Virus record (IMG/VR): IMGVR_UViG_3300012936_000001 | Location: 62,001-126,000 of that record | Origin: a virus | Direction: 5' to 3' (one strand) | Length of the DNA stretch: 64,000 bases | Shown here: positions 3,186 to 63,839 of the stretch, piece by piece | How positions within the stretch are numbered: the first letter of the stretch is position 1 | Layout: every line of letters starts with the position of its first letter | Notes under the pieces: model-generated | Told to the model about the DNA's origin: nothing | The model's input: only the letters and a program-made list of their open reading frames with translations | Databases searched by the model: none | Position numbers and translations under genes: made by a program

Positions 3186-3211
3186 GAATAAAATGTTAAT
3201 TGGAGAAATCA

Positions 3212-4915
3212 ATGTCTAATATCTTTGATGAAGCGATTGCAGACGCAAAAAAACTAAAAGAAATTGCGGAACAAAATGCAAAAAATAGGATTATAGAGGC
3301 TGTTACACCTAAAATAAAAAGGCTTATCGAAGCTGAAATTGCTGGTGAAGACATGGACCTGGAAGATGCAGAAGAAGATTCTGATGATTATGAAGAGTTC
3401 ACAGCCGGCGATACTGCCATGGATGTGGATTCCTCTTCTGGGCTGGATCTAAGTTATAACGAACCTGTGGAACCAGAAATGCCAGCAGATATGGGGTCAC
3501 CTATGATGACCGACGACATAGATCTGGATGATGGCCTTGGCCTAGAAATAGAAGACGATAAACCAGAAAAGAACGTTGTCATCAACGTCACGGTAGAAAG
3601 TGCCAGAAAATCTGCGTTGTCAAAATTGAGAAAAAGAAAAGCAGTAAAATTACTTGAAAGTCTAAGAAGTGCTAAAAATGCAAGCAAAAAAAGAAAAATG
3701 CTTTCTGAATTGGCAAAACTACAAAGAGAGTGCATATCTAGTAGTAGTACTGTTGACAAAAAATTAGCAAGAAAATTATCAACTTTATTAAAGGAGACAA
3801 ATATGTCTAGAAGAACACGAAAAAACTGGTTTTTATTCGAAGGCGAAGGTGAAGGCGAAGACGAGGACTTGGATCTCGGCGGAGACGAAGATCTTGACCT
3901 TGAAGATGAAGACGAAGAAGTGGACGTCGATGCTATTAAGTCAGCAATCGAAGAATTAGCTGATGCAGTCGGTCTTGAAGTAATGGACGAGGACGAGGAC
4001 GAAGACGAAGACGTAGAGGGTGAAGAAGAGGAAGAGGAAGAAGATCTTGACCTTGGAGAAGCCGATATGGATGATGTCGATATGGCAGAGGGAATATACG
4101 AAGCTGACATGGATGAAGACGAGGATCTCAAAGAAGACGATGATAAAGTCGTTGAGATTAACGAGTCTGCTCTTCGTAGAGACCTTATGAGAATGAAGCG
4201 CAATGCTCGTAACCGTCGTTCTCGACGACTTGCAGAATCACGTCGTTCAAGAAGCGCAAGCAGAAGACGCCGCAGACTTTTTGAAGCAGAAGCAGTAGAT
4301 GCTGCTAGCCATTTTGGCGGCGGATCTGCCGAACAAGAAATGTTCATTGATGTCGACGAAAACACTCTTATTAATGCTCTCGCAGAAGAACTTGGAGACG
4401 CACACGATCTTGACATGAACATAGACGGATCTGGAGATGCTTCCAAAGCAGCCGGCCATTTTGGCGGCGGAAAAGCTCAGGCTATTCGTGAAGCAAGACG
4501 AAGAAGAGCAATCGCTCGTCGTGCAAAAATTACAGAGTCTCGCGCAAAGCGTGCAGTACTGGCTGAACGCAAGAAAGCTGCAGCTGCAAAGCGTGAACTC
4601 AAAGAATCAAATCTTTTTAATGCAAAATTGTTGTATGTAAACAAATTGATGCAACAGCATGTTCTAAACAAAAAGCAACAGCGTGCGATTGTTGAGGCTC
4701 TTGATAATGCCAAGACGTTACGTGAAGCAAAACTACTTTTCGAAGGGCTTTCTGATTCTCTTTCGAAAGCAAAAAGAAAATCAGGCAACAGCCTAAATGA
4801 ATCCAGAGTTATTTCCGGAAGATCATCAACTGCAACTCGTAGCTCTGCTCCTGCAACTACTCAAATGAGTTCGGACCTTTCTAGATGGCAAAAACTCGCT
4901 GGAATCAAAAAGTAA
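3212..4915 (+). CDS. 22: Prohead core scaffold, T4 gp22-like
   Basis: Internal scaffold on which the capsid shell assembles and which the protease later destroys. The 567-residue product is about twice the size of T4 gp22 and extremely charged: polyacidic blocks near residues 40-75 and 205-300 alternate with Arg-rich blocks near 330-360 and 430-470. The C-terminal region (LLYVNKLMQQHVLNKKQQ followed by VEALDNAKTLREAKLLFE) is the part typical of gp22-like scaffolds. Many L-x-E and I-x-E sites fit proteolytic destruction. ATG 3212 was chosen for GGAG at 3202-3205. A candidate late promoter lies at 3178-3185, and the capsid gene follows 46 nt downstream. Confidence 0.8.
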   Translation: MSNIFDEAIADAKKLKEIAEQNAKNRIIEAVTPKIKRLIEAEIAGEDMDLEDAEEDSDDYEEFTAGDTAMDVDSSSGLDLSYNEPVEPEMPADMGSPMMTDDIDLDDGLGLEIEDDKPEKNVVINVTVESARKSALSKLRKRKAVKLLESLRSAKNASKKRKMLSELAKLQRECISSSSTVDKKLARKLSTLLKETNMSRRTRKNWFLFEGEGEGEDEDLDLGGDEDLDLEDEDEEVDVDAIKSAIEELADAVGLEVMDEDEDEDEDVEGEEEEEEEDLDLGEADMDDVDMAEGIYEADMDEDEDLKEDDDKVVEINESALRRDLMRMKRNARNRRSRRLAESRRSRSASRRRRRLFEAEAVDAASHFGGGSAEQEMFIDVDENTLINALAEELGDAHDLDMNIDGSGDASKAAGHFGGGKAQAIREARRRRAIARRAKITESRAKRAVLAERKKAAAAKRELKESNLFNAKLLYVNKLMQQHVLNKKQQRAIVEALDNAKTLREAKLLFEGLSDSLSKAKRKSGNSLNESRVISGRSSTATRSSAPATTQMSSDLSRWQKLAGIKK

Positions 4916-4961
4916 GTTCAGCCCAAGTTAAAAACAAACACAACTTTTATTGGAGACAAAA

Positions 4962-6920
4962 ATGTCATTTACATTGCAAAAGTTGACAGAGGGCATTCGT
5001 CAACGTCACATGGGTGCCCAACATCAACGACTTACAGAAAAATGGAACCGCACAGGTCTTCTTCGTGGTCTTAACGGACAAAACAAAGAAAACATGGCAG
5101 TTCTTCTCGAAAACCAAGCCGCTCAACTTTTGAGAGAGGCAAACACTCTTGGAGCTACTAGTGCTAGTGGAACTGGTCCCTCTGCTTCCGGAGACATTCG
5201 CGGATTCCAGAACGTTGCATTCCCAATCGTTCGCCGAGTATTTGGTGGATTGGTTGCAAACGATCTCGTATCTATTCAGCCCATGAGCCTTCCAGCTGGA
5301 TTGCTCTTCTATCTTGATTACACTTACGGTTCAAGCGTCGGTGGAGCAGATGGAACAGTTGACTCTACTGTTTATCAACAAGGTCAGTCAATCTACAACA
5401 ACCCTGCTGGAAAAGGAATTCAGTCTGGTTCTTTGGCTGTAGGTGGACAATACGATCTTGCTGGTGCAGGATTCTCACGAAAGCATACAGCTGCTGTTCT
5501 GGCCGAATCAAATACACTCGGAACAAACATTGTAACAGGTGTTTGGAGTCCTAGCGACGCATTCCAAAATGGAGCTAGCGTTTCTGATGCTTACATCTCT
5601 GCAGTTGGACAGTTTACTGGTTCTAACGCTCGATTGATGCAATATGATCCTCAGATTCGTACTGCTCTTGATAATAACGAGCTCGGCGCTGTTCTTTTTG
5701 CTATGATCCCTACATCTTTGATGACTGGATCTAATTCAGAACAAGCTGATCTTACCATGATCAAGGACATTGCACTTACTGCTGAAAAGGCCGGAGAAGC
5801 TACAAACGCTGCATTGCTTACTCAGTGGGGAGAAAAATATCAAGGTGGAAACAACGTCAAGAACCTCCGACGTCTCAACCAATTGGTTACGTGGGACGGC
5901 TCTGGTCTTCCTGTGCATGCTCCTCTTGCTGAATACAATACTTCAAATGCTTATGTATTGATGGTTGTAAAAGCGACAAAGGGCGCAATCCCTACTCTTG
6001 CAACTTTGGCTGCCGAGCAAATTGGTGATCTTTCTTTCCCAATTAAGCCTACCAGAACTTCTGGCGACAGCGGCGATTCAATCTTGGTTCCAACTTTTGA
6101 ATCTAACATGCTTGCTGGTGCTTCAAACGCTCCTGTTATTCCTGAAATCGACATTAAGATCGAATCTATCTCTGTTACCGCGGTAACTAGAAAGCTTCGT
6201 GCTCGTTGGTCTCCAGAACTTGCTCAGGACTTGAATGCATACCACTCTATGGATGCAGAAGTTGAGTTGACTCAGATTCTTTCTGAGCAAATTGCTCTTG
6301 AACTTGACCGTGAGATTCTTAACGACCTTCTTACTCAGGCAAATGGTGCTAACCTTTACTGGTCACGCGCTCCTGGTAAATTCGTCAACAAAGAAACCGG
6401 TTCTCAGATTGCTGTCTCAACTTCTGTGGCAAGTCCTTCTTTCACTGGTACAGTTCGTGAATGGTACGAAACTCTTACAGAGACCATCATCGACGCTGCT
6501 AACACTATTCACCGTAAGACTCTTCGTGGATCTGCTAACTTCATCGTGGTTGGACCTGATGTTGCTACAATCCTTGAAAGCTCTGTTCTTTACAAGCCTG
6601 TATACAGCCTTGACGGTGACGGGCAAGTTGGTAACCCAATGACTATTGGCGCCGAGAAAGTTGGTAACTTGAGCAATCGTTTCACAGTCTACAAGGATCC
6701 TTACTTCCCACGTAACAAGATCTTGATCGGTTACAAAGGTGGTTCTTATCTTGAAACTGGTTATGTATATGCTCCTTACGTGCCTCTTATTGTTACCCCT
6801 ACGATCTTTGCTCCTGAGGACTTCACTCCTCGTAAGGGTGTAATGACTCGTTACGGTAAGAAGATGGTTCGTTCTGACTTCTACGGAACTGTTACATGCT
6901 TGGATATGCACATCATCTAA
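4962..6920 (+). CDS. 23: Major capsid protein, T4 gp23-like
   Basis: Forms the hexameric capsomers of the head. The 652-residue protein carries the gp23 signature VAFPIVRRVFGGLVANDLVS and QPMSLPAGLLFYLDYTY near residues 85-125, and a conserved pre-sequence (LLENQAAQLLRE). LLRE ends at Glu59, followed by Ala, an excellent [L/I]-x-E site for removal of an N-terminal delta peptide; T4 gp23 is cut after Glu65. Start 4962 is preceded by GGAG at 4952-4955. It is longer than T4 gp23 (521), with extra sequence in the middle. Codon choice differs visibly from neighbours (many CGT, GCT, CTT), as expected for the most abundant protein. A strong terminator follows. Confidence 0.93.
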   Translation: MSFTLQKLTEGIRQRHMGAQHQRLTEKWNRTGLLRGLNGQNKENMAVLLENQAAQLLREANTLGATSASGTGPSASGDIRGFQNVAFPIVRRVFGGLVANDLVSIQPMSLPAGLLFYLDYTYGSSVGGADGTVDSTVYQQGQSIYNNPAGKGIQSGSLAVGGQYDLAGAGFSRKHTAAVLAESNTLGTNIVTGVWSPSDAFQNGASVSDAYISAVGQFTGSNARLMQYDPQIRTALDNNELGAVLFAMIPTSLMTGSNSEQADLTMIKDIALTAEKAGEATNAALLTQWGEKYQGGNNVKNLRRLNQLVTWDGSGLPVHAPLAEYNTSNAYVLMVVKATKGAIPTLATLAAEQIGDLSFPIKPTRTSGDSGDSILVPTFESNMLAGASNAPVIPEIDIKIESISVTAVTRKLRARWSPELAQDLNAYHSMDAEVELTQILSEQIALELDREILNDLLTQANGANLYWSRAPGKFVNKETGSQIAVSTSVASPSFTGTVREWYETLTETIIDAANTIHRKTLRGSANFIVVGPDVATILESSVLYKPVYSLDGDGQVGNPMTIGAEKVGNLSNRFTVYKDPYFPRNKILIGYKGGSYLETGYVYAPYVPLIVTPTIFAPEDFTPRKGVMTRYGKKMVRSDFYGTVTCLDMHII

Positions 6921-11246: not shown

Positions 11247-14200
11247 ATGGCAGAAAAATCTTTTAAATCACCAGGATTTTTTGAACAAGAAATAGAACTA
11301 ACTGTTCAGAGACAATCTCCCTCCGGAAATCCTGCAGGAATTATTGGAACGGCAGAAAGCGGACCGGCTTTTGTTCCAATAACAATCGGAACCTTTGAAG
11401 ACTTTCGAAATCGCTTCGGTGGTCTTCATCCCGACCGTTTTGGACCTTACGCTGTAAGGGAGTTCTTGAAAAATAGAAACGCCGTAACTTATATGAGGGT
11501 CCTAGGCGCTGGTTCAAATGATTCGCCGACAGATATTACGAATACAAAAGAGTATGGAATAGTAAAGAATGCCGGGTTTATTCTTAAAGGTTCTACTTCT
11601 GAAATCGATAGTAGAAAACCTGGAACTGTCCAATTCTTAGTGGCTCAGCATACAATACCAGCTGCTGCAGACATTGGATATCCTCTTTTTACAGACAATG
11701 AATCATTCCCTTCGGTACGGGAGTCTAGTAAAACTTTTACAGCTGACGCCGGAATATGCCTTGTTCGAGCGGTAATATTCACTCCGACCGGTTCTTTGAT
11801 GACGATACAAGACAACGACTATGATATACAAGCTGCGGCAAACGTGAATGCCGCAGATGATCTTGCAACTGCTGACAGTACAAATTATGCTGTGAAACTA
11901 GTCCTCAGAAATGGAGAATCATCGGAATTTGGCAATAGCGACGGAAAAGGAAGTAATTCTCAAGGCGTGAGAGTATATTCTGCTTCTTTAGATCCAGATA
12001 ATGTAAACTACATAGGAAAAGTATTGAACACAGATCCAAAGTTGTTCCAGCAAGAGCAACATTTGCTATACTTGGATTTTCCAATAGAAACTTCGGTTGC
12101 GACACCATCAACAACTGCAAACCATGTCGGCCTGTTAATGGGTGGAGCAAACACGGTTACTGAAGTTCCTACGTCTGTAATTTCGGATGTTTCGCATGCT
12201 TCAATATTCGGTAGATATGATACACGTTATAAGGCTCCGAAGACAACAAAATTTATTTCGCAACCATACGGAACCACAGAGTTTGATTTGTTTCATTTCG
12301 AACTTCTTTCAGACGGTTCAAACGCGAATTCTTTATATAAAATATCGATATCTAACATAAAGGCTTCTACAAATCCAAATTACAAATATGGAACATTCAA
12401 CGTAGAACTAAGAAAATTCAACGATATTGATCAGTCGCCAGAAATCCTAGAACAATATACCGCTTGTTCTTTAGATCCAAGAAACGAAAGGTTTATAGCA
12501 AAGGTCATTGGAGATAAAAAAGTTGTATATGATTTTGACTCAGAAAATGAAGATGAAAAAAGACTAGTAGTATCCGGAAGATATCCAAACAAATCTTTAC
12601 GTCTGAGGGTTGTAATGGAAGACGCAGTATATAAAGACCAGGTGCCAGAAGATGCTTTGCCTTTTGGTTTTAAGGGCATACCTGTTATAAAGACTTCGCC
12701 GAATACAAAACAAGCACCTGCTACTTTTGACCCAATCAACTCTTTTGGAACCGCGGTTGTGAGCGGAACAAAAAGATTGGCAGAGGAAGCTAGCACTGCG
12801 ACTGATCTTACCGGTTCAATCGTGCCTCCGCTTCCTTTCAGGTTCAAAGTAACAAAAGGCGCTTTGGAATCTACTTCCACCAGTGTTCATTATACTGGCT
12901 ACCCTGGAGCAAAAGAAAGAATCGATGGTCGTTTATACTGGGGTGTTCAATTTCAAAAGATTGGTTCTTCTATCTACGCTCCAAACGGTTCAAATAAGGC
13001 AAATGAATTTATAAAATCTTATACCAAATTTCAAGGAATTCAGAAAATAGGCGCGCTGTATTCAGACAGTGACGCAAATTCCTTTGGATCTAATAAATTT
13101 ACTCTGGCAAGAGTAGCCTTAGGTAATTCATTGTCCGGGGCCGGCCACATCTCGGACATTACAGGTTCGGCAAGTCAGCACATGTTGGAAGCAGCCTATA
13201 TAAGAAATGGAACGGTCAAAGCGTCAGATTACACAGTGAACGATGCTGTCTCCGGCGGCGATCGAATAACGTTGGCTACGCTTATAAATTCTTCTAGCGT
13301 GCATTTCAATCGATTCAGCTCTTTTGCAAAGTTCAACAATATATTTTTTGGTGGATTTGACGGACTAAATATACTGAACAGAGATATCAATAATATGACT
13401 GACAAAGCAGCGTCAACCGATTCTGCTGCTGGAGGACTTGGAGGAGATTCCATCACTGGAGGCCTGGGATTATCTGGAACAAACGATGGTAGCACAATGG
13501 GTAAAGGAAAATTGAATAACGTTATCGCTTCGTATAGACAAGCTATCAACATCATGACAGATCCTTTGTCTGTAAGGACTAATATTCTTGCAATTCCTGG
13601 AATAAGAGACGCTTATGTCACTGACCACGCTGCAGAAAAATCACGTGATTATGCAATGGGGTTCTACGTAATGGACATTCCATCTTATGATGAAGACGGA
13701 AATAGAATATTTATTGACGACGCATCAAAAGTTCCGGACGTTGATAAGACAGCCGAAGAACTAGAAGGAAGGGTTTTTGATAACAACTATGCTGCAACCT
13801 ATTTTCCAGATGTTTTTATTACAGATCCACAGAACAATAGAAGAGTATTGGTGCCTCCTTCGGTAGCTGCTATCGGCGCCCTTGGATTTTCTGATACTGT
13901 TGCTTATCCATGGTTTGCTCCCGCGGGATTCAACAGAGGGTCTCTTGGATTTGTACAAAATGTCAAAGTTAGATTATCAACACTAGATCGAGATACACTC
14001 TATGAAAGTAGAATTAATCCTATATCTACATTTCCTAATGGCGGATTTGTAATCTTTGGACAAAAGACACTTCAGTTGGCTCAGTCTGCTCTTGATAGAG
14101 TAAACGTAAGAAGGCTTATGCTTGAGGTCAAAAGACAAATTGTTAATGTTGCAAGAAATCTTGTCTTTGAACAAAACAATAACCAGACAAGACAAAGATT

Positions 14201-14408
14201 TATAAACTCTGCCGCCCCTAAGTTGGCGCTTATTCAGTCTCAGGCTGGAATAGAATCTTTCAAAATTATTATGGATGATTCGAATAACACTGAAGCAGAC
14301 AAAGAAGAAAACAGACTTAACGGAAAAATAATCGTCGTTCCAACCCGAGCAATTGAGTTTATTTCAATAGACTTTGTAATTACTAATTCGGGTGTTGCAT
14401 TTGAGTGA
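11247..14408 (+). CDS. 18: Contractile tail sheath protein A, gp18 family
   Basis: Subunit of the contractile sheath. The 1,053-residue protein begins with the conserved sheath N-terminus (KSPGFFEQEIEL, GNPAGIIGTAESGPAFVPIT), and its last 200 residues carry the conserved core (YPWFAPAGFNRG, INPISTFPNGGFVIFGQKT, SALDRVNVRRL, PTRAIEFISIDFVITNSG). T4 gp18 is 659 residues; the excess lies in the middle, from about residue 90 to 750, probably surface insertions. It has an AGGAG site and its own late-type element. A second, diverged sheath gene follows 35 nt downstream, and the two share a 36-nt identical block near their 3' ends. Confidence 0.92.
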   Translation: MAEKSFKSPGFFEQEIELTVQRQSPSGNPAGIIGTAESGPAFVPITIGTFEDFRNRFGGLHPDRFGPYAVREFLKNRNAVTYMRVLGAGSNDSPTDITNTKEYGIVKNAGFILKGSTSEIDSRKPGTVQFLVAQHTIPAAADIGYPLFTDNESFPSVRESSKTFTADAGICLVRAVIFTPTGSLMTIQDNDYDIQAAANVNAADDLATADSTNYAVKLVLRNGESSEFGNSDGKGSNSQGVRVYSASLDPDNVNYIGKVLNTDPKLFQQEQHLLYLDFPIETSVATPSTTANHVGLLMGGANTVTEVPTSVISDVSHASIFGRYDTRYKAPKTTKFISQPYGTTEFDLFHFELLSDGSNANSLYKISISNIKASTNPNYKYGTFNVELRKFNDIDQSPEILEQYTACSLDPRNERFIAKVIGDKKVVYDFDSENEDEKRLVVSGRYPNKSLRLRVVMEDAVYKDQVPEDALPFGFKGIPVIKTSPNTKQAPATFDPINSFGTAVVSGTKRLAEEASTATDLTGSIVPPLPFRFKVTKGALESTSTSVHYTGYPGAKERIDGRLYWGVQFQKIGSSIYAPNGSNKANEFIKSYTKFQGIQKIGALYSDSDANSFGSNKFTLARVALGNSLSGAGHISDITGSASQHMLEAAYIRNGTVKASDYTVNDAVSGGDRITLATLINSSSVHFNRFSSFAKFNNIFFGGFDGLNILNRDINNMTDKAASTDSAAGGLGGDSITGGLGLSGTNDGSTMGKGKLNNVIASYRQAINIMTDPLSVRTNILAIPGIRDAYVTDHAAEKSRDYAMGFYVMDIPSYDEDGNRIFIDDASKVPDVDKTAEELEGRVFDNNYAATYFPDVFITDPQNNRRVLVPPSVAAIGALGFSDTVAYPWFAPAGFNRGSLGFVQNVKVRLSTLDRDTLYESRINPISTFPNGGFVIFGQKTLQLAQSALDRVNVRRLMLEVKRQIVNVARNLVFEQNNNQTRQRFINSAAPKLALIQSQAGIESFKIIMDDSNNTEADKEENRLNGKIIVVPTRAIEFISIDFVITNSGVAFE
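14078..14113 (+). repeat. 36-nt block identical in the second sheath gene
   Basis: Identical to 17173-17208. It encodes AQSALDRVNVRR of the conserved sheath C-terminal core. Synonymous positions are identical too, whereas surrounding sequence has diverged. Confidence 0.9.
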
Positions 14409-14443: not shown

Positions 14444-17400
14444 ATGTCAGAACAAATATTAAAAAGTCCAGGAGTTTCCGCAAGAGAAATAGATCTGTCT
14501 CAACCAGGCAGCACATCCCCTAGGGGAATACCTGCTTGCGTTATTGGAACAGCTCAGAAAGGTCCGGCTTTTGTGCCTATTACCTTTGCATCTTATGCTG
14601 ACTTTAAAACAAAATTCGGTGGAACCGATGGAAAATTATTCGGCCCAATTGCTGTCGCGGAATGGCTAAGAAATGCTCAGTCAGCAACTTATGTGAGAGT
14701 TCTTGGCGTCGGAAATGCAAAAAAAGCAAATACAAACGGAACTACAACTAATGCTGGTTTTGTCGTTGGTAATAAGCTTCCTCAAGCTGGAGGAAACATC
14801 GGAAGGAACATACACGCTACGGATCTCCGTCCCGCTGGCCGAACATTCTTTTTATCTGCCTTTATGAAAGACAAGTCTGATGCAAATGCTGATAAAATTG
14901 GATATTTGACAGACGCAGATTTGTCTGGATCTGTAGATAAAGCAGTGTTGAGAGGTTGTATTCTTGTCGCTTCTGGTGTACGTCCTGCATTGTCCGGATG
15001 GGACGCTTCTGAACTGGATGCCCCAAATACTACGACAACAATAACTAGTGATGCTGGCCATGAGGTTGGAGCCGTAAATTTGAATACTAATGGCGATGAA
15101 TCATTTGTAATGTTCCTTAACGGATTCACGAATACAAATGCTCAAACGGCTATAATCACCGCTTCGATGAATCCTTTGAGTAAAAATTATTTTTCTAAGG
15201 TCTTGAATACAGATCCAACAAAAATAGAAGAAAAAGGTCATTATCTTTATGCTCATTTCGACGTTCATCCAAATCAGGCAACGGTTACTGCGATGGAATA
15301 TCCGGAGAGAGATAAGCAACTCGAAAACGCAGTGGGTTATGCTCACCGCGTAATAATTCAATCAGGTTCACATACTAGAAATACTTTTCATGGTTCACAA
15401 TACAAGCCTAATTTTGAAAACTTTGAAGACAAATTTAAACATGCAGAGTCTCCGTGGATTATATCTCAGACACTAGGTTCCGGACCAAAAAATCTATTCA
15501 AGGTATATGCGCTAGACGCCGGAGAATATGCGAATACTCTTTTCAAAATATCTATTGCAAATATTAAAAAATCTTCTGATGTTAATTATGATTATGGCCA
15601 ATTTGATTTGTTGGTAAGAGCATTCGATGATACGGATGCAGAGCCACAAATCCTAGAAAAATTCACAGCTTGCTCTCTAGATCCTTCTTCCGATCGATAT
15701 ATAGCTAGGGTTGTAGGCGATCAGAATATATTCTTTGATTTTGAGAAACAAGACGCAAATCAAAAATTGGTTATAGAAGGTTTGTACCCAAATAGATCGC
15801 AATATATCAGAATTAAGGTTGTCGACGATGTTGAAAATGGCGTTATTAGCGCAACTGCTCTTCCGTTCGGATTCCGAGGAAAGAAACACTTGGTTCTTGA
15901 TGGTGTTTCTCTTGGTCCTCTAGACGCATCTGCTACCACCGGTCTTGATGAAGCAGAAATAGACGGAAATGTCTTTGAACCGCCTGTTCCACTTCGAAAA
16001 ACTCTACGCATAGGGCAAGGATCATTGTCAAGAATCGATTCTCGACTTTATTGGGGTGTTCAAAATACTATGCAAGGATCTGTTCTTGATCCAAATGCAT
16101 CCAGTGTTATTAATCCTCTGATAGCTAACTTTACAAAATATTTTCCAACCTTTGGAACCTATGCTCCTTTCGTCGGAGACAACGCCGGCGCAGCGAATGA
16201 TTCCAATGGAGCAAAGCTTGATAGCGATGCCTATAATAACAACATGTTTACCTTCGAAAGAATATGGGCAAAATGTAAATCCGGAGCTGTTGCAAACGCT
16301 GTCGATAATTTGCAATGGCACGAAGCCGTTTATATCAGATCAGGTTCTACGCCGGCCGCTAATTCTGGGCTTGGATATTTCCAAGAAGATGACGGTTCTA
16401 CGCCGAAGACGGCTGCGAATGGATATAGATTCTTGGATTACACAAAAGACTTTGGCGAACAAGCTTCGAAGAAATTCTTCAAGTTTACTACATTTTTGCA
16501 AGGCGGGTTTGACGGTTTGAATGTCTTCAAGAAAGATATGCATGAATTGGCCAACAATCAGGCACATCGAGAAGCTCTATATTCGACGTCAACCGGTTAC
16601 GGAACAACTGGGCCTACGATCGCGGCATATAGAAGAGCACTTGATATAGTAGCAGAAAAATCAGACGTCGATATTCAGTTGTTGGCAATTCCTGGTATTC
16701 GAGAGCCATCTATCACCGACTATGCCATCGATCAAGTAGAAAACAGATTTGATGCATTGTACATTATGGATGTAGAAGAAGAAGAAACTTCTGCTGGAAC
16801 AGTCGTAACTTCGTCTTTGCAAAATATCAACGTAACAAATACTTCTAATCGACTTTCAAACAGAGTGCTTGATTCTTCTTTTGCAGCGGCATATTTCCCA
16901 GATGTGATCATTGCAGATCCGGATTCAACAGCCAACATTCAGTCGCCACCTTCTTGTGCAGTATTAGGAGCAATGTCTCTTAACGACTCTGTCGCGCATC
17001 CTTGGTTTGCGCCTGCAGGATTTTCTCGCGGGGCTTTGTCGTCAACTATCGAAGCACAAGTAAAATTAAATCGTGCAAATATGGATTCTCTTTATGAAGC
17101 AGACATCAATCCTATAGTTGCTTTCCCAACTTCTTCTGGTGTTGTAATCTTCGGACAGAAAACTCTTCTGCAGGCTCAGTCTGCTCTTGATAGAGTAAAC
17201 GTAAGAAGATTGCTGATAGACATCAGAAGAAAAGTAAGATTGGTCGCAAACTCTGTGTTGTTCGAGCCAAACAGAGAGTCAACTCTTGCAAGATTCTCTG
17301 CTTCCGTTCAGCCGATTCTTACGGTTATTCAACAGCAACAAGGACTAGATAGATTCAAAGTCGTTATCGATACAACCACAACAACCCAGCAAGATGTTGA

Positions 17401-17500
17401 GAATAATACGATAAGAGGAAAAATCTTCTTGCAACCCACAAGAGCTGTAGAATTTATCTCTCTAGATTTTGTTGTTACAAATGCTGGTGCAGAGATTTAA
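14444..17500 (+). CDS. 18: Contractile tail sheath protein B, gp18 paralogue
   Basis: A second full-length sheath protein of 1,018 residues. N-terminal (SPGVSAREIDLS, RGIPACVIGTAQKGPAFVPI) and C-terminal (HPWFAPAGFSRGAL, INPIVAFPTSSGVVIFGQKT, PTRAVEFISLDFVVTNAG) sheath motifs are intact and align with the first copy, while the central insertions have diverged strongly. It has a strong AAGGAGAG site. Both copies have complete cores and their own ribosome sites, so neither looks like a pseudogene. They may co-assemble, form different parts of the sheath, or be used alternatively. Tail tube follows, as in T4. Confidence 0.92.
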   Translation: MSEQILKSPGVSAREIDLSQPGSTSPRGIPACVIGTAQKGPAFVPITFASYADFKTKFGGTDGKLFGPIAVAEWLRNAQSATYVRVLGVGNAKKANTNGTTTNAGFVVGNKLPQAGGNIGRNIHATDLRPAGRTFFLSAFMKDKSDANADKIGYLTDADLSGSVDKAVLRGCILVASGVRPALSGWDASELDAPNTTTTITSDAGHEVGAVNLNTNGDESFVMFLNGFTNTNAQTAIITASMNPLSKNYFSKVLNTDPTKIEEKGHYLYAHFDVHPNQATVTAMEYPERDKQLENAVGYAHRVIIQSGSHTRNTFHGSQYKPNFENFEDKFKHAESPWIISQTLGSGPKNLFKVYALDAGEYANTLFKISIANIKKSSDVNYDYGQFDLLVRAFDDTDAEPQILEKFTACSLDPSSDRYIARVVGDQNIFFDFEKQDANQKLVIEGLYPNRSQYIRIKVVDDVENGVISATALPFGFRGKKHLVLDGVSLGPLDASATTGLDEAEIDGNVFEPPVPLRKTLRIGQGSLSRIDSRLYWGVQNTMQGSVLDPNASSVINPLIANFTKYFPTFGTYAPFVGDNAGAANDSNGAKLDSDAYNNNMFTFERIWAKCKSGAVANAVDNLQWHEAVYIRSGSTPAANSGLGYFQEDDGSTPKTAANGYRFLDYTKDFGEQASKKFFKFTTFLQGGFDGLNVFKKDMHELANNQAHREALYSTSTGYGTTGPTIAAYRRALDIVAEKSDVDIQLLAIPGIREPSITDYAIDQVENRFDALYIMDVEEEETSAGTVVTSSLQNINVTNTSNRLSNRVLDSSFAAAYFPDVIIADPDSTANIQSPPSCAVLGAMSLNDSVAHPWFAPAGFSRGALSSTIEAQVKLNRANMDSLYEADINPIVAFPTSSGVVIFGQKTLLQAQSALDRVNVRRLLIDIRRKVRLVANSVLFEPNRESTLARFSASVQPILTVIQQQQGLDRFKVVIDTTTTTQQDVENNTIRGKIFLQPTRAVEFISLDFVVTNAGAEI
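17173..17208 (+). repeat. 36-nt block identical to first sheath gene
   Basis: Second copy of the block at 14078-14113, in the same reading frame and the same position of the sheath core. Confidence 0.9.
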
Positions 17501-44789: not shown

Positions 44790-45239
44790 ATGGTTGAAAT
44801 ATTTTCACAGTGGATTGCGACCCATAAAGCAGTCACATCATGGTTCCATGCTGCTCACCACCTTACAAAAGGTGTTGGGTTCGGCGGGGACCATGTTAAC
44901 ATTTACGGAAAGATATATACAGAATTTCAAGAAGACTTTGATGCTATAGTTGAAAAAGGGCTTGGGTTATGTAACGATGAGACGCTAGCAGATCCTCTCA
45001 CCATATTGTCATCCGCATCCACAATGTTAGGCCAATACTTTCAGCCATCAAATTCTTGCCCAGATAAATTAGCCATCGCTGCATGTGAATTGTCAAAAAG
45101 ATATGTCGATTTATTACAGCAGTTTTATACGAGGTTTGAGTCCTGTGGGCATTTAACTATGGGTCTTGACGACATGATGGCAGCCATGGCAAATCGATAC
45201 GAAACGCATGTTTATCTACTACAACAGAGAGTAAAATAA
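44790..45239 (+). CDS. Dps/ferritin-like protein
   Basis: A 149-residue four-helix protein resembling Dps. The first helix region SWFHAAHHLTKGVGFGGDHV and IYTEFQEDFDAIVEKGLGL match the H-x(11-12)-D-x(3)-E type metal-binding layout of Dps, followed by two further long helices. Dps proteins oxidise and store iron and may bind DNA. The start ATG 44790 abuts a tiny hairpin ATATAG-GAG-CTATAT (44775-44789) whose loop holds the ribosome site, so translation may be modulated. It ends in a TAATG junction with a leader-bearing gene. Confidence 0.65.
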   Translation: MVEIFSQWIATHKAVTSWFHAAHHLTKGVGFGGDHVNIYGKIYTEFQEDFDAIVEKGLGLCNDETLADPLTILSSASTMLGQYFQPSNSCPDKLAIAACELSKRYVDLLQQFYTRFESCGHLTMGLDDMMAAMANRYETHVYLLQQRVK

Positions 45240-45652
45240 TGAAACTTACAAAAAGACAGCTTAAGAGAATTATAAAAGAAGAGTACACACGGTTGGTAAG
45301 CGAAGGTCTTATCGCAGAGTCTTATGGGCAAGATTATCGAAACCAAAAGAAAGCTATCGGCCGCAACACTGGCTACTTTGATATGCTTTCACAAAACAGA
45401 TACCGCCCCTCTCCTGACACAGTTTTTAACATGATAGACAAATTACATGGTAAGCCAGGCAAGACGATCGCTGCTAAGCTCGCATCTCATAGAGGAATAT
45501 CGCTCGATGATCTTGAGGCCGCTTATTCAGAAGCAAAACTTGACGGTGGACCTGACGCTGGAATTATTGAGGCTGCTATCGACTATAAGAAATATGGTCT
45601 TCCAAGAACAAAAGACACATATGTTCCATATCAGCAAGGTGGCCCAGAATGA
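45239..45652 (+). CDS. Candidate prohead cargo protein with basic leader
   Basis: A 137-residue protein whose N-terminus MKLTKRQLKRIIKE is the clearest example here of a basic amphipathic leader ending in [L/I]-x-E; further sites LVSE and LIAE follow within 15 residues. The remaining ~110 residues form a small helical domain (TVFNMIDKLHGKPGKTIAAK, GISLDDLEAAYSEAK) that could be DNA-binding by its helix-turn-helix look, but I do not recognise it. It is joined to its neighbours by TAATG and ATGA overlaps. Packaging into the head and trimming is my inference. Confidence 0.55.
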   Translation: MKLTKRQLKRIIKEEYTRLVSEGLIAESYGQDYRNQKKAIGRNTGYFDMLSQNRYRPSPDTVFNMIDKLHGKPGKTIAAKLASHRGISLDDLEAAYSEAKLDGGPDAGIIEAAIDYKKYGLPRTKDTYVPYQQGGPE

Positions 45653-52425: not shown

Positions 52426-52578
52426 ATGTCAAATCCATGGGACTATGAATATCATCACCCAAATAAATCAATACGCAAAAAATCAAAAGAAGCAATAAAG
52501 ACTTTTGTATTTGCTACTGCAATCGTTGTAGGAATTTATTACCACTTTCTAAAAAGCAATGTAAAACCAATCAATTAA
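52426..52578 (+). CDS. Small single-pass membrane protein
   Basis: A 50-residue protein, ATG 52426 with AGGAGG at 52416-52421. A polar His/Lys-rich N-terminus is followed by one hydrophobic helix (TFVFATAIVVGIYYHFL, residues 26-42) and a short polar tail. It stands just before the DNA polymerase III gene. No function is assigned; a role in the host membrane is likely. Confidence 0.55.
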   Translation: MSNPWDYEYHHPNKSIRKKSKEAIKTFVFATAIVVGIYYHFLKSNVKPIN

Positions 52579-52610
52579 AATTACAATAGTAATGAACTAT
52601 AGGAGAATAA

Positions 52611-55600
52611 ATGAAACCAACAAAATTTGTCGGATTGCATGCTCACGATGGCTTTTCGACTTTCGATGGCCTTGACTATCCACAGGATCACATTGACTTT
52701 GTAAGATCCAACGGCATGAATGCAATGGCCATTACGAATCACGGGCACATGAATTCGTATGCACACGCGCAGCTTCACGTTGAAAAGATTAATAAAGCCG
52801 GAGCTAATTTCAAGTTCATTCCAGGCTGTGAGATGTATGTTCATCCCGACTTGAATCTTTGGCAACTAGAATACGACATTCGCAAAGCGAAGAAGAAGGG
52901 CAACCTAGAAGAGGCGGCCCGCCTAGAAGAACTACGTAAAGAGATAGATCCCACCATTCAATCGTCTGGTGATGATGTCGAAGAAGTTGCAACAGAAGAC
53001 GCCGGTCTAACGATCGAGAATGAAGACGAAACAAAGTCTGGAAAGTTCTTTGATCCAATCAAAAGACGTCACCACTTGGTAGTTCTTCCTCGAACCTCAA
53101 CAGGGCTGCAGCGGCTTTTTCATCTAGTGTCTCGTGGATACAAGGAAGGATTTTATCGCTTTCCTCGAGTTGATTATAAGATGTTGAAAGAGGCTGCCAA
53201 AGGTGGACATATAATGGTGTCGACAGCCTGCCTAGGTGGTCCGTTGAGCTATGAAGTCTTCAAGCAGTTGGATGGAATAGAGTTCGATGACATACGCCCT
53301 GAACTTCTTGATAATCCAGAATTACGCAAAAAGATTATGCAGAACGTATCCATTGCATATAATCAGCTGGTCAATGCAATCGGAGAAGAGGGAGTAATGC
53401 TCGAACTTCAGTTCAATCGACTCGGCGCACAACATCTTGTGAATCGCGTTCTTATTGAGTTCGCTCGAGATAATGGCCTTACAGATAAACTCATCGTAAC
53501 ATGTGATTCACATTATTCAAAGCCTTCGCATTGGAAAGAGCGTGAGCTTTACAAAAAACTTGGATGGATGAATCACCGTGAATTCTCACCGGATTCTTTG
53601 CCGAAGTCTATCGAAGAACTCAAGTGTGAACTGTATCCAAAGAATGCAGATCAGGTGTGGCAGTCATACAAAGATACAACGCAGGGAATGCCGTTCTATT
53701 CAGACAAGGAAGTATTCGATGCTGTCGAACGCACTCACTATATTGCCTATGAGATGATTGGAGATATTCAGCCGGATCGCTCTCAAAAGCTTCCGTCGTA
53801 TGTAATCCCAAAAGACAAGACAGCTGATCAGGCACTTATTCTTTCATGTAAAAAAGGGCTTGTTGAAAGAGGTCTGCATAAAAGTAAAGAATACATCGAT
53901 CGACTTAAGTATGAACTTACGGTCATCAAATCAAAGAACTTTTCAGAATACTTCTTGACCACCAAGGCAATTATCGACTTGGCAAGAAAGCATATGTTCG
54001 TCGGCCCCGGCCGCGGCTCTGGAGCCGGTTCACTTGTGAATTATGTACTCGGTATCACAGATGTTGATCCTATCAAGTATGGTCTTCTCTTTGAAAGATT
54101 CTTGTCTCCTGACCGAAAAGACATGCCAGACATCGATACAGACATCGGCGACCGAGATCAATTGATTACCTTGATGCGTGAAGAGTTCGGAACAGAGAAC
54201 ATTGTTCCTATCTCAAACTACAATACTTTCAAACTCAAGTCATTGGTAAAAGACATATCTAGATTCTATGGCATTGAGTTCTCAAAGGTAAACAAGGTTC
54301 TATCAAGTCTAGACCGAGATGTTCGCCAAGGGCTTCGATCGGACGGTGTAGAAGTGAATGGCCCTGTCGAAGCAAAGCTAGAGTGGGCAATAAAGTATTC
54401 TCCGGCTTTCTCAAAATTCATCGAAGATCATCCGGAGATTGCAGAACCTATTGATGTATTGTTCAAACAGAACAAGGCGCTTGGCCGACATGCAGGTGGA
54501 GTTATTGTATCAGAAAATATTGCAGAACGAATGCCTCTCATTCTTGCTCGTGGAGAACTACAGACTCCGTGGGTAGAAGGAGCTTCGTACAAACATCTAG
54601 AACATTTTGGTTGGGTAAAGTTTGATCTTCTCGGCCTAGAAACTCTTCGGATCATAGAAAGAACAATCGAGCTTATTCTCAAGAGAAAGAAAGGAATCAA
54701 GGATCCATCGTTCGATCAGATCAAGGATTGGTTCAATGAGAATATGGCAACGGACACTATCGACTTTGATGATCAACGAGTGTATAAAAACGTGTATCAT
54801 AAAGGCAAGTGGGCTGGTATATTTCAGTGTACTCAGGCAGGTGCCCAACAATTGTTCAAGAAGGCTCAACCGTGTTCGATTGTAGATATAGCAACGCTAA
54901 CTTCTATCTATCGTCCAGGACCGCTTGGAGCAAACGTAGATAGATTGTATCTTCGCAACAAGAAGGAGTACAGTGCAACATACGGCCATCCTCTCATCGA
55001 AAAGATTCTTGAAGAGACATTCGGTTGCATTATCTTTCAAGAGCAGGTGATGGAGCTTGCGAACAAGGTTGCTGGTATTCCAAAAGAGGAATGTAATTCT
55101 GTACGTAAAATGATGAAGCCGCAAGGCTCATCCAAAGATGCTTTGTCAAAAGCAAAAGCACTGGAAGATAGATTCGTCGGCGGCTGTATCGAGAATGGCA
55201 TCTCTAGAAAGATTGCTCAAAAGTTGTTCGATGACATTATGTTGTTCGCATCGTATGGGTTCAATAAGTCACACGCGGTTGCTTATGCGATTGATTCGTA
55301 CTATTGTGCTTGGCTGATGACATACCATGAAGAAGAATGGCTCTGTGCGTATCTCGAATCCATGGAAGGCAATCCGGACAAACGAGGAAAAGCTTTCTCC
55401 GAAGTCCAAGCTCTGGGATATGAGATTGTTCCAATCGATATCAACTACGCTGAAAAGAACTGGACTATTCTTCCAGGAAAGAAGTTCATGCCATCGTTCC
55501 GTTCCTGCAAAGGGATTGGCGATACGGCGATCGATGAGATAATAGAGAATAGACCTTATCATTCTTTCAATGAGATGTTCTGGACCGATGAAGGAAAGTG

Positions 55601-59432: not shown

Positions 59433-62400
59433 ATGTTACTAGATGAACTTTTAGAAAGCGTAATAATGGCAGCGCATGCATTGAACGAAAAAGATGCATC
59501 AAAAAGTCTAGACGAAGTAGAAGGAGATGAGGAGAAAGACGACTTTGGTGAATTTAATAAGTACATTGACAGAATAACAAAGAATTCAAAAAGTTTGGAA
59601 GATTTGCTCAAAAAGGAACTCGGCGACAATGAAGGTGCTAAAAGTATCCTTTTGCCTTTTGAAACTACGCGAACACTCTTGTTAGGGACACAGGAAACGA
59701 TAGCGAATCCAAAAACAGATTTTCAAGATCCAAAAAATGAAAATGCGAAACAAATAAATAGCACTTTGCAAAATTTTATGATCAATCTTGTATCACTGCG
59801 AAGAGGGCTGGAAAGTCTAGCGGAATGGTCAAAAGGCTTAGATAAGATAGGAATTAAGGACGCACAATTTAATAAGTTGTTTGGTGTTGTTCAAAAAGAA
59901 TCAATGATTCATAAATCTAGTCTTTCTTCTCTGCTATTAGAAATGAAATCACCAGAAGACTATCCTGCTGGATCTATTGCAAAAGCGATTGCAAACCTTG
60001 CCAATTTCAACGTTAATCTAAAAGACGTTTTTGACCCAGACGGAAGAGAACATAAATTAGTAATCAATTATTTTAAGAAGCTGGATGACAACATTGGCAA
60101 ATTAGAAAAGACGCTAGGAAACAAAAAAGCACTTGAAAGCGAAATTGATAAATTTTTCAAAACAAGACCAGGCCAAGGTGTCATTGCAGCTGCCTGGTCC
60201 TTTGCTAAGTCAATGGTGGCATCCTTTTTTAAGCCGGCACCTATTGGCGATGGAACAATTCTTAATGCTAGGCAAGCCATGGGATCAATAGAAGAACCAT
60301 CAGGCCTCTTGTTTCTTAGTCCAAAGCAGATCATAGATATAAACGAGAAGGTCAACACTGGTCTCAAGGACATGAAGAAGAATGTCTCTATCGTGCGGGA
60401 CATGCTCGCATTCGGCGGAAAAGACGCAGACAGAATCCAGGCATACATCAAGGATAACGAAATAGAGGCCGACGATTATCTAGAAGATCTAGATGCAAAT
60501 ATAGACTGGGACAAAGAAAAAGACTACAAGAAGCTAAAAGCGGCAATGATATCGTCAGACTATTATGGAGAATCCTATCAGGTTCAAAAAAATCTAATAC
60601 ACAAGAACACGATGCAAAATCTTTTGTTCGAAGACGCAGAAGAATTTGTCGATCTTTGGAATCAATTTCTCTCAAAAGGTAACAACATAACCCAGAAGAC
60701 AAAGGAAGCCGGGACCCTCCTGTTTCCGAAATTATCAGATGATTATGACTGGAGTGGTGAAACCCTAAATTGGGAAAAGAAAAAAGAGCCCGACATGGCT
60801 TTTCCGCAAGGTAGCCTTTATCCCTCCTCTGACGACCCAGAATTTCGAGCGATATTGAAAAAGGTTGAGAAGAAAGAACCTCTCTCAGACGAAGACCAAA
60901 ATAAATTAAAGGAATTAGTGAAGGAAGAACCATATAAAAAAGCAGATCTCGCACAGGCCTTCATCGAAGACAAAGGTAATGATATCAATAACGCAGATTT
61001 GGCCAATCAGATTGCTGACATTATTACGTTAGGTAACGATGAAGTATTGCTGTCTGCGGTTGACGATGACAGAGAGCAGATCAACAAAACCTTAGAAGAA
61101 AAAGGAATCCCGTATGCAATCAACGCAGAAAAGGATGATGACGGCAAACCCATTGCAATTAGATTGATAAGGGTTGAAGATAAGCCAGAGCGCGGAATAA
61201 ATCTGCCCGCCGGTAAGACAAAGGTCTCAAGGGCTGCGATGAAGGCTTTATTTCCCGATAAAGATGAGATAATCACCCAAGCACTCGCCGCGTTAGGAAA
61301 TTACGAATTGATCGAATCTAATAAATTGCTGCACAGAAATTCACTAGCCCAGTTATTATCCGAAGAAAAACAATCGCTATTAAAGTACATTGTTTCTTAT
61401 TATAGCAAGAACGCTATTGATCAAACCCAAAAACACTGGGAAAATACCCCGGGAGCCAAAGACGCGGCACTGAAAAGACTGAACAATATGCTAATACAAA
61501 AGAAAGATGTGCTCAAGGAAAAAGGAATTGATCTTGATGAAGAAATAGAGATTGCCGAAGAAGAGCCAGGTGAAACAACGATTACACTAGAGCCTGGTAA
61601 ATACCCTGATCCAAAAAGCGCCGAGGAGGAACTTGACAGCTCACCTGTGACTGATGATCTACCAACCGCGGAAAAGAAGAAAGTAGCGTCAGTCATGGTT
61701 GGTGTATCACAGAAAGAAACAACGCCTCAAGAAGCTAACGCTGAATTGTTTGGCACTGGCTTGGGAGTAATGACCCCCACAGGTAAACCCTTGGAGTTGG
61801 TCGAAGAGGAACCTCCTCCACCCAAGCCGAAGAAGGAAGAAGGGCAGCCGGTACCCGATGAGAAAGAAACATTTTATTATTCTTTTACACCGCTGAACAC
61901 ATTTAGGCCTACCAAGACCAAAATCGCTACAGTTGAAGAAATCATAGCCAATATGAAGAACGATAGCATCGCGTCGCATATGGTTTATTTATCTGCAAAA
62001 GATGGTTGGTCTATGAACACTTTTGGCTCCTTTGACAACGACTGGCCTCAGGTCCTAGGAGGATCCTCGGATGCTGCCTCTGAGAAAAAAGGCGTCTCAA
62101 AACAAAAAATCAAATCCCTATTCAGCAACACTACTTCGAAATTCTACGACGACCTTGAATATAAATATACCGGCAAAGACGGCAGCAACAGCAAACGTGA
62201 TATGGGCAGTTCGTTGATGATGCATATTCCAAAAGCTATTGCTTCAGCAACCGGCCTGGAGCTGACAGAATCTCGCCTTATTCACAAGTCAAGTCTATCA
62301 TCTCTTCTCAGAGAGGCTTCTGTTTTTGATAAAATATTTGATGAGTTTCATTCTAGTTTTGCTAAGAAAGCGCAAGATAAAGATGGAGGAATATTCAAAA

Positions 62401-63371
62401 AAGAACCATTGAAAAAATTCCTAAGAGGCATTTTTGAGAAGGAAGAATTAAAATCCGTCATGAAAGACTTAGGGGTCGACGATGTTTTCTCCGGTGGAAC
62501 AGATGATGAAGAACCGGAAGCAGACGTTCAACCAGTGAGTGTGCCAAAAACTGGCAGCCCAAAGGAGGATGTGGAGAAAGACCTCAACAAAGCCGGGATC
62601 CAAAATTCGAAAGAAGTTGCTAATGACCTTGATGCGGATGGAGATGGCAATATAACGTCCAAAGAAGCTGAGGATCTTGCAAAGAAAAAGGAGGACATAA
62701 CCGCCAAACCTGGGGAAGACGATTCAACTAATCTTATTGTGGAACCTTCCGCCGAACAGAAAGATTCGGGCACAAAGATAAGCAGAAAAACAGACTTGAG
62801 AGATTTCACCGAAGATGAACAAGATACCATCGAACTGGCGCTTGCCGACATATTAGATGGAGATATTGTAACAGAATCCAGCCTACACAAACTTGGACTA
62901 GGCATTTTACTTGAAAACAAAGCAAACGATTTTGTAGAGCTGTTATTTGATTCTGGCCTAGAAGCTGAGCAGGTTCAAACCATTATCAAGAAGATAAAAG
63001 ACAACAAGGATCTTAGCGACAAATTAAAGAAGCTCGGCATAGATATGGAAGAGACATCAGAAAAATCTATTCCAGGCGTAACTATTCGACCGAAATTTAT
63101 GGACCTCATTAATAAAAAGAAAAAACAACTAGCAACCCAAGCATTCACGCGAGATCCAGAAGAGGGTGGTATAAAAGGTCTTCCTGGGGTCAATGTATTG
63201 AAGAAAATGTTCGGGGACCCGACACAAGTTGCTAATATCGAAAAGACTTATAACTATATTGCCAAGAAAACAGTAAAGGCTCCAATCTTTCCAGAAGGAA
63301 AGCGCAGCCCCAAATCAAAACTTATTCACAAACGTAGTCTTACCGAAGCATTATTTAGTGACGATGACTAG
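59433..63371 (+). CDS. Giant repeat protein, candidate prohead-cleaved polyprotein
   Basis: A 1,312-residue acidic, helix-rich protein of no recognised family. Six copies of a motif of the form [S/N]-x-L-[I/L]-H-[K/R]-x-[S/T]-L-x-x-L-L-x-E end at about residues 170, 400, 644, 961, 1161 and near 1304; four end exactly in L-x-E, matching the prohead protease consensus, as does MLLDELLE at the N-terminus. They divide the chain into segments of about 140-320 residues. One segment holds a perfect EF-hand loop (DADGDGNITSKE, 1067-1078). Each motif looks like the N-terminal leaders of small proteins here. I infer a cargo polyprotein or a multivalent scaffold; a plain repeat protein is the alternative. 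AGGAG lies 10 nt upstream. Confidence 0.6.
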   Translation: MLLDELLESVIMAAHALNEKDASKSLDEVEGDEEKDDFGEFNKYIDRITKNSKSLEDLLKKELGDNEGAKSILLPFETTRTLLLGTQETIANPKTDFQDPKNENAKQINSTLQNFMINLVSLRRGLESLAEWSKGLDKIGIKDAQFNKLFGVVQKESMIHKSSLSSLLLEMKSPEDYPAGSIAKAIANLANFNVNLKDVFDPDGREHKLVINYFKKLDDNIGKLEKTLGNKKALESEIDKFFKTRPGQGVIAAAWSFAKSMVASFFKPAPIGDGTILNARQAMGSIEEPSGLLFLSPKQIIDINEKVNTGLKDMKKNVSIVRDMLAFGGKDADRIQAYIKDNEIEADDYLEDLDANIDWDKEKDYKKLKAAMISSDYYGESYQVQKNLIHKNTMQNLLFEDAEEFVDLWNQFLSKGNNITQKTKEAGTLLFPKLSDDYDWSGETLNWEKKKEPDMAFPQGSLYPSSDDPEFRAILKKVEKKEPLSDEDQNKLKELVKEEPYKKADLAQAFIEDKGNDINNADLANQIADIITLGNDEVLLSAVDDDREQINKTLEEKGIPYAINAEKDDDGKPIAIRLIRVEDKPERGINLPAGKTKVSRAAMKALFPDKDEIITQALAALGNYELIESNKLLHRNSLAQLLSEEKQSLLKYIVSYYSKNAIDQTQKHWENTPGAKDAALKRLNNMLIQKKDVLKEKGIDLDEEIEIAEEEPGETTITLEPGKYPDPKSAEEELDSSPVTDDLPTAEKKKVASVMVGVSQKETTPQEANAELFGTGLGVMTPTGKPLELVEEEPPPPKPKKEEGQPVPDEKETFYYSFTPLNTFRPTKTKIATVEEIIANMKNDSIASHMVYLSAKDGWSMNTFGSFDNDWPQVLGGSSDAASEKKGVSKQKIKSLFSNTTSKFYDDLEYKYTGKDGSNSKRDMGSSLMMHIPKAIASATGLELTESRLIHKSSLSSLLREASVFDKIFDEFHSSFAKKAQDKDGGIFKKEPLKKFLRGIFEKEELKSVMKDLGVDDVFSGGTDDEEPEADVQPVSVPKTGSPKEDVEKDLNKAGIQNSKEVANDLDADGDGNITSKEAEDLAKKKEDITAKPGEDDSTNLIVEPSAEQKDSGTKISRKTDLRDFTEDEQDTIELALADILDGDIVTESSLHKLGLGILLENKANDFVELLFDSGLEAEQVQTIIKKIKDNKDLSDKLKKLGIDMEETSEKSIPGVTIRPKFMDLINKKKKQLATQAFTRDPEEGGIKGLPGVNVLKKMFGDPTQVANIEKTYNYIAKKTVKAPIFPEGKRSPKSKLIHKRSLTEALFSDDD
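59901..63356 (+). repeat. Six dispersed leader-like motifs within one protein
   Basis: Copies are encoded at 59901-59942 (SMIHKSSLSSLLLE), 60591-60632 (NLIHKNTMQNLLFE), 61320-61364 (NKLLHRNSLAQLLSE), 62271-62315 (SRLIHKSSLSSLLRE), 62877-62915 (SSLHKLGLGILLE) and 63315-63356 (SKLIHKRSLTEALF). Spacing is irregular, 140-320 residues, and the DNA sequences differ, so the repeat is conserved at the protein level. Confidence 0.85.
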
Positions 63372-63380
63372 GAGAAATAA

Positions 63381-63839
63381 ATGAAAAAGAAACTCACAGA
63401 AAAAAGAATCATCAACGCTATACGTAAAGTGTATCGCCAAAGACTGGCAGAAGTCGCCATAGCAGCCGGGCTAGAAGAAGCAGACATGTATGACAAAAGA
63501 GGCAACATGATTCTCTCTCAAGGATTGAAAGTTCGACACAAGGCTTCCGGATATGAATATACTGTAGACCATGTAGAGGGCGACGGAGACGGCGCAGTTA
63601 TATATCTTCGGCACCCAGACCAACCAAGATTCGAAGCAAGCGATTCAAACATGACAATATCAGAATCCGGAGTTTCCGTCGATCTATCCGGTGTAGATTT
63701 ACAGAGAGTCGCTGGCAAAAAGAAAATGCCAAAGGTTCAGCTGAAAAAGAAACCAGATGCCGGAGAGTTGAAAATACCAAAGTCTTCTCTTTTGGCGGTA
63801 AGTAAAGAAGAATTCGACAAAGCATATGAGGTAGAATAA
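63381..63839 (+). CDS. Leader-bearing hypothetical protein
   Basis: A 152-residue protein starting 9 nt after the giant repeat gene with AGGAG. The leader (KRIINAIRKVYRQRLAE, then Val) is basic, amphipathic and ends in LAE. The middle (residues 35-80) is a small beta-type domain (LKVRHKASGYEYTVDHVEGD, GAVIYLRHPDQPRF), like an SH3/KOW-type fold, and the C-terminal third is Lys-rich. It joins the next gene by a TAATG overlap. A packaged DNA- or protein-binding cargo is my inference. Confidence 0.5.
   Translation: MKKKLTEKRIINAIRKVYRQRLAEVAIAAGLEEADMYDKRGNMILSQGLKVRHKASGYEYTVDHVEGDGDGAVIYLRHPDQPRFEASDSNMTISESGVSVDLSGVDLQRVAGKKKMPKVQLKKKPDAGELKIPKSSLLAVSKEEFDKAYEVE

Follow-up and report, generated by a model that had tools for sequence, protein, structure and literature searches.

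Prohead proteases trim leader sequences and destroy scaffolds. In phage T4, the internal proteins IPI, IPII, IPIII, and Alt are cut by the protease gp21, and IPII and IPIII start with the capsid-targeting sequence, or tag, MKTYQEFIAE|A, in which the bar marks the cut. The first ten residues are enough for packaging; residues 4 and 7 are important for targeting and residues 8 and 10 for processing, and an aspartate at position 10 keeps targeting and stops cutting (PMC9026906). Counted back from the cut, residues 4, 7, 8, and 10 correspond to positions P7, P4, P3, and P1. In the giant phages SPN3US and phiKZ, many head proteins are cut, and long propeptides are trimmed stepwise (PMC5694885, PMC10052503). 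Polyvalent proteins are delivered multi-domain chains with an embedded metallopeptidase, which were likened by the authors describing them to the polyproteins of RNA viruses (PMC5512222). Here we describe a large and fast-changing 1,312-residue protein of an uncultured T4-like marine phage, in which a unit resembling the T4 tag is repeated. The gene is located in the window, the 64,000-nucleotide stretch of DNA analysed here, which comprises bases 62001–126000 of the 167,118-base virus record IMGVR_UViG_3300012936_000001. The protein is called the slot protein, after the position that large open reading frames (ORFs) occupy in related phages. The comparisons below suggest, with a probability of about 0.57, that it is a head-packaged modular precursor of several cargo proteins, which is cut at its tags by a gp21-type protease.

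The tag and the protease belong to the known T4 internal-protein system. The slot protein has in common with IPI, IPII, IPIII, and Alt the hydrophobic residues at P7, P4, and P3, the glutamate at P1, the predicted cutting after L/I-x-E, and an S77-type protease; in both systems, one tag is carried by proteins with differing, fast-evolving mature parts. However, each small T4 protein has a single N-terminal tag (Alt additionally loses part of its C terminus), whereas the slot protein has five to six copies inside a 1,312-residue chain. Predicted cuts behind a short motif with a terminal glutamate, several of them per substrate, and internal cargo that is probably ejected are features shared with SPN3US and phiKZ (PMC5694885, PMC10052503), but in those phages cutting strips a propeptide from a single mature protein, whereas here several large segments would be freed. 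As in the polyvalent proteins of phages and conjugative elements, several fast-shuffling modules of one chain are thought to be delivered together (PMC5512222). Release of the polyvalent modules is attributed to the embedded metallopeptidase, whereas no peptidase domain was found in the slot protein, and the prohead protease is proposed to release its segments. A literature search combining phage, polyprotein, and prohead protease returned no like case among titles and abstracts, which is not proof of novelty.

Repeated units and small-protein leaders

The slot protein is encoded by a single open frame with an ATG start and an upstream AGGAG. The possibility of a decayed or truncated gene was rejected, because the frame is uninterrupted and the following gene begins 10 bases further on. 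The features of the frame, with the units identified from the sequence, are:

59433–63371, + strand: slot protein, putative modular precursor of 1,312 residues; single open frame, in a slot filled by large variable ORFs in relatives
59433–59456, + strand: N-terminal MLLDELLE8|S, leader-like start with an L-x-E site; the N termini of orthologues carry fuller leader units
59898–59942, + strand: unit 1, ESMIHKSSLSSLLLE170 (KE|SMIHKSSLSSLLLE170)
60591–60632, + strand: unit 2, NLIHKNTMQNLLFE400, without an upstream E|S site
61317–61364, + strand: unit 3, LIE628|SNKLLHRNSLAQLLSE644
62271–62315, + strand: unit 4, LTE946|SRLIHKSSLSSLLRE961|A, nearest to a double site
62877–62915, + strand: unit 5, degenerate, VTE1148|SSLHKLGLGILLE1161, spacing off by one relative to the other copies
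63318–63368, + strand: C-terminal copy, KLIHKRSLTEALFSDDD, with serine in place of the P1 glutamate; predicted to dock and not to be cut, based on the T4 position-10 data (PMC9026906)

The copies that follow H-[K/R]-x-[S/T/N]-[L/M]-x-x-L-L-x-E finish at E170, E400, E644, and E961. Four matches to the strict pattern H[KR]x[ST][LM]xxLLxE occur in the slot protein, compared to none in 4,000 shuffled versions of it; a relaxed pattern has six matches, against a shuffle mean of 0.012. The motif is absent from all other ORFs in a six-frame translation of the whole record. The initial annotation had listed six copies of the motif, four of which were said to end in L-x-E, separated by segments that differ from each other. 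The frame and the repeats are real, but the fifth copy is degenerate and the sixth lacks the glutamate; the number of copies ending in L-x-E is five, including SSLHKLGLGILLE1161. The segments do differ, as no mutual similarity was detected among them in a segment comparison. Segment 5 contains DLDADGDGNITSKEAED (window 62700–62760, approximately residues 1090–1110, backwards from an acidic linker), which resembles an EF-hand calcium-binding loop and is not reported by Pfam.

The conserved element extends beyond the motif described initially. It often opens with E-S, which is sometimes itself an [LIV]xE|S site, and closes with LLxE 12–16 residues further on. The copies ending at residues 170 and 961 are identical in 11 of 13 residues, 8 of which are encoded by different codons. 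These synonymous differences led us to reject a recent duplication of the DNA, and therefore selection acts on the peptide. A general enrichment of L-x-E was likewise rejected, since the slot protein contains 23 [LI]xE sites where 20.1 are expected; the structured unit alone is enriched. The N-terminal MLLDELLE8 includes an L-x-E site but lacks a hydrophobic P4 residue; in many orthologues, a full unit is located close to the N terminus.

The L-x-x-L-L-x-E of the repeat is spaced in the same way as the T4 sequence MKTYQEFIAE. In the copy K-S-S-L-S-S-L-L-R-E, hydrophobic residues and glutamate are positioned at P7, P4, P3, and P1, as in the T4 tag, and the same four places are occupied in the leader K-R-Q-L-K-R-I-I-R-E of 46 small ORFs. 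The spacing common to repeats and leaders is K-x-x-L-x-x-[IL]-[IL]-x-E, and this residue-by-residue match bears out an early observation that the copies resemble the leaders of small proteins. When compared with the capsid-targeting tag, units 1–4 agree with it, the spacing of unit 5 differs by one, and the C-terminal copy, without its glutamate, is probably not a cut site.

The MKITKRQLKRIIRE leaders of the 46 small ORFs are distributed as 9, 21, and 16 per genome in this record and the two relatives G001 and G002, respectively. The leader MKITKRQLKRIIREE, often followed by YSRLKRRGLIRE[SM], is found at window 45239–45652, at record positions 52540–53795, 134906–135280, and 162177–164918, and in G001 and G002. 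The parts of the 46 proteins after residue 30 are unrelated, except for two linked pairs, and the leader-bearing ORFs may thus be regarded as a battery of predicted head cargo. A search of INPHARED with the leader peptide gave no match, which is weak evidence because the BLAST low-complexity filter was on, and the Pfam matches of small leader proteins to DUF2193 and IBD were below the cut-off and were disregarded. A 231-residue ORF in G001 (L091; G001:C1:52332–53027, − strand) contains two leader copies in one frame and apparently corresponds, as judged from its leaders, to two tagged small cargoes joined head to tail; the second leader starts with GTG, so a separate start is possible. Leaders of this kind are also present on two proteins encoded in the window:

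45239–45652, + strand: small protein with the leader MKLTKRQLKRIIKEE
63381–63839, + strand: 152-residue downstream neighbour of the slot protein, starting with MKKKLTEKRIINAIRKVY; marker of the slot by synteny

An Fe/Mn superoxide-dismutase-like protein (L006:340–1023, + strand; record bases 125839–126525; Pfam Sod_Fe_C, 1.2e-22) extends across and beyond the right end of the window. It is syntenic in relatives and has the leader-like N terminus MDRTIKKIIKE, which makes its packaging into the head possible.

Head genes and syntenic relatives

The phage is T4-like, based on its S77 prohead protease and gp23-type capsid protein. The head genes of the window that bear on the slot protein are:

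58–684, + strand: prohead protease of the gp21/Peptidase_S77 type (Pfam, 2.2e-26; PHROG 207, 2.3e-50), with GELDHP and GISSRG as in T4 gp21
3200–4915, + strand: gp22-like scaffold, preceding the capsid gene, with many [LI]xE|A/S sites and the C-terminal tail RWQKLAGIKK
4950–6920, + strand: major capsid protein of the gp23 type (Pfam Gp23, 4.2e-76), with an invariant LLRE63 site in an 81-sequence alignment

The protease segments GELDHP and GISSRG, which lie in the catalytic region, correspond to GELNHP and GVSSRG of T4 gp21. The capsid proteins of relatives have [LVI]L[RK]E63 in 81 of 81 sequences, with L61 and E63 invariant, followed by a variable stretch of Gly, Ser, and Ala and then by the conserved core. 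T4 gp23, which loses its first 65 residues (PMC9958956), carries FLTE65|A at the matching place. The [LVI]L[RK]E63 segment is read as the putative capsid maturation site. The scaffold is named from its place in the gene order, the density of its L/I-x-E sites, and its conservation.

Searches with the slot protein identified no homologues in PHROGs, INPHARED, IMG/VR (direct protein scan), or 30 related records, and no Pfam domain above the cut-off. The single match in the PDB had an E-value of 0.1 and was taken as chance, and a degenerate DNA pattern for LIHKxSLxxLLxE, covering one of the two serine codon families, had no match in viral contigs. Orthologues were reached by synteny only. The slot between the dCMP deaminase and the 152-residue protein, which is followed by the superoxide-dismutase-like protein, contains a large ORF in G001 (872 residues), G002 (822 residues), and G004 (656 residues). 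In G001 and G002, the neighbours of the slot are approximately 48–81% identical, and the slot protein itself is undetected by blastp. With the orthologues added by scans with the superoxide-dismutase-like and DHH neighbours, the family comprises 36 slot proteins, which are 299–1,376 residues long. Several more distantly related phages have an empty slot.

The initial annotation had proposed aligning homologues to see whether the motif alone is kept; in the relatives, the unit recurs while the module content changes. Internal units include FNFIHKSSLASLLLE and ESIHLNSLNSLLVE in G001, ESYRSSLSFLLLE and NYFRKSLSGLLFE in L137, ESFYRKELTNLLFE in L199, and HESSLSSLLFE in L200, and many slot proteins have a unit near the N terminus. 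The strict pattern has 34 internal matches in the slot proteins, compared to 15.2 in shuffles. Internal units are present in 19 of the 20 slot proteins longer than 550 residues and in 3 of the 16 shorter ones; the number of copies follows protein length (Spearman 0.80), which is partly trivial, as longer chains give more chance matches. The modularity of the family is evident from L140 (703 residues) and L146 (478 residues), which match over residues 9–290/2–287 and 516–702/292–477. The approximately 225 additional residues of L140 between the matching parts hold a unit, and a portion of these residues matches L149 at 53%; L149 contains the C-terminal module twice. The edges of the insertion in L140 do not fall at the unit, and therefore the modules are not simply swapped at the cut sites.

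The structure of L140, predicted by AlphaFold2 from six sequences, has a mean predicted local distance difference test (pLDDT) score of 61.1. The leader (residues 1–44) and the unit (residues 399–412) score below 50, and helical parts that score near 80 flank the unit. A small barrel at residues 471–514 is SH3/Tudor-like according to Foldseek, with weak E-values; the Foldseek search with the model returned nothing at E ≤ 0.001.

In the slot proteins reached through synteny alone, the C terminus is RWxxLAG or a recognisable form of it, usually directly after [LIVMFY]xE. Those found later were partly chosen by this tail and are not independent evidence for it. The gp22-like scaffold has the RWxxLAG tail in all four genomes, and the scaffold of the cultured Flavobacterium phage immuto (NC_055915) ends with SRWQKLAGIIK; T4 gp22 is without this tail. 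In the form RWxKLAG[IL], the tail is common to the scaffold, two leader-bearing proteins (record 132448–134889), and most slot proteins. It is a possible core-docking tail, and its distribution would tie the slot family to the core.

A proposed packaged precursor and its alternatives

In the proposed mechanism, the precursor is taken up into the prohead core, where the P7 and P4 hydrophobic residues of each unit would dock the chain as the core grows. Once the shell is closed, the protease would cut behind LLxE and in many cases also at the E|S preceding the unit, freeing a tag of 12–16 residues. The C-terminal copy without glutamate would only dock. About six chains of 17–35 kDa would result (residues 9–170, 171–400, 401–644, 645–961, 962–1161, and 1162–1312). 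Most likely, these chains are internal cargo that evolves fast and would be ejected with the DNA, like T4 internal proteins, and supplied in equal numbers from one chain. The initial annotation had proposed a polyprotein split by single cuts at the repeats. The tag, leaders, protease, and capsid site agree with a polyprotein at the level of sequence, while packaging and cleavage are predictions; the cuts may often be double. The two-leader ORF, which looks as if two tagged cargoes had been joined, supports the precursor, as do the scaffold's C-terminal tail on orthologues and the gain, loss, and duplication of modules in the syntenic family.

Several observations weigh against such a precursor. 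Packaging, cutting, and ejection are each deduced from sequence. Many orthologues have one internal unit and the short ones mostly none, which makes a precursor of many pieces the extreme of the family. The window protein lacks the RWxxLAG tail that nearly all of its orthologues have and ends in the glutamate-less copy instead; the P1 glutamate is also missing from copies in L136 and L143. An upstream site is absent from unit 2, and the sequence of unit 5 is degenerate. Burial of the copies within folded domains had been named at the outset as an outcome that would contradict the polyprotein. In L140, the unit is part of a low-confidence linker that joins folded parts, but the AlphaFold2 model of residues 1–1200 of the window protein alone (mean pLDDT 39.5) is uninformative on this point.

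The slot protein could alternatively be a second scaffold or core protein, similar to T4 gp22, gp67, and gp68, which helps to build the core and is then destroyed by the protease, so that fragments exit and no mature cargo remains. A predicted association with the core, several putative protease sites per chain, and the C-terminal tail that slot orthologues share with the gp22-like scaffold of their own clade fit this function, as do the single slot copy per genome at a fixed place and the largely helical and acidic character of the protein. Nevertheless, we consider it unlikely. Cargo is favoured over scaffold because the scaffold of this phage contains 24 [LI]xE sites where 10.2 are expected (2.4-fold) and 14 E|A/S sites, whereas the slot protein has no such excess, and because the slot protein diverges much faster: the scaffold is 45–49% identical in the two closest relatives, in which the slot protein is beyond detection by blastp. 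Unlike T4 core proteins, the slot protein has discrete repeated units and varies widely in length and sequence, and the one from the window is tailless. The 299–1,376-residue range and the vacant slots of distant relatives also argue against a structural component of the core.

The repeats might instead be docking motifs only, with the chain tethering or organising other cargo at several points in the core or head and remaining uncut there. T4 targeting residues are distinct from processing residues, and the glutamate-less copies of the window protein, L136, and L143 keep the SLSxLL core. However, glutamate occupies P1 in five of the six copies, LLFE recurs across several orthologue groups, and the capsid site has the same form, which together make docking alone quite improbable. 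The upstream genes encode enzymes of nucleotide metabolism (dCMP deaminase and dUTPase) and not head proteins, as might be expected for an unpackaged multi-domain protein of the cytoplasm, in which the likeness to leaders would be coincidental or due to another shared partner. The match to the leaders and to the protease site, the scaffold tail of the orthologues, and the similar leader of the downstream neighbour render this explanation highly improbable.

If the precursor is cut as proposed, a DNA phage would apply the logic of polyproteins to the loading and release of several cargo proteins. More tentatively, at slightly less than even odds, widespread uncultured T4-like marine phages may make a head-packaged polyprotein whose tags serve as both docking and protease sites, and whose fast-evolving cargoes, equal in number, are released only in the closed head and then injected; a battery of singly tagged small cargo proteins would accompany it. 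The tag rule h-x-x-h-[LI]-x-E, in which the P1 glutamate is optional for docking, lists likely head cargo of uncultured marine phages from sequence, including 9–21 small proteins per genome in three genomes and the superoxide-dismutase-like protein.

Elsewhere in the window, two neighbouring large ORFs (11247–14408 and 14444–17500) have similar starts, KSPGFFEQEIEL and KSPGVSAREIDL, and look like tail-sheath paralogues.

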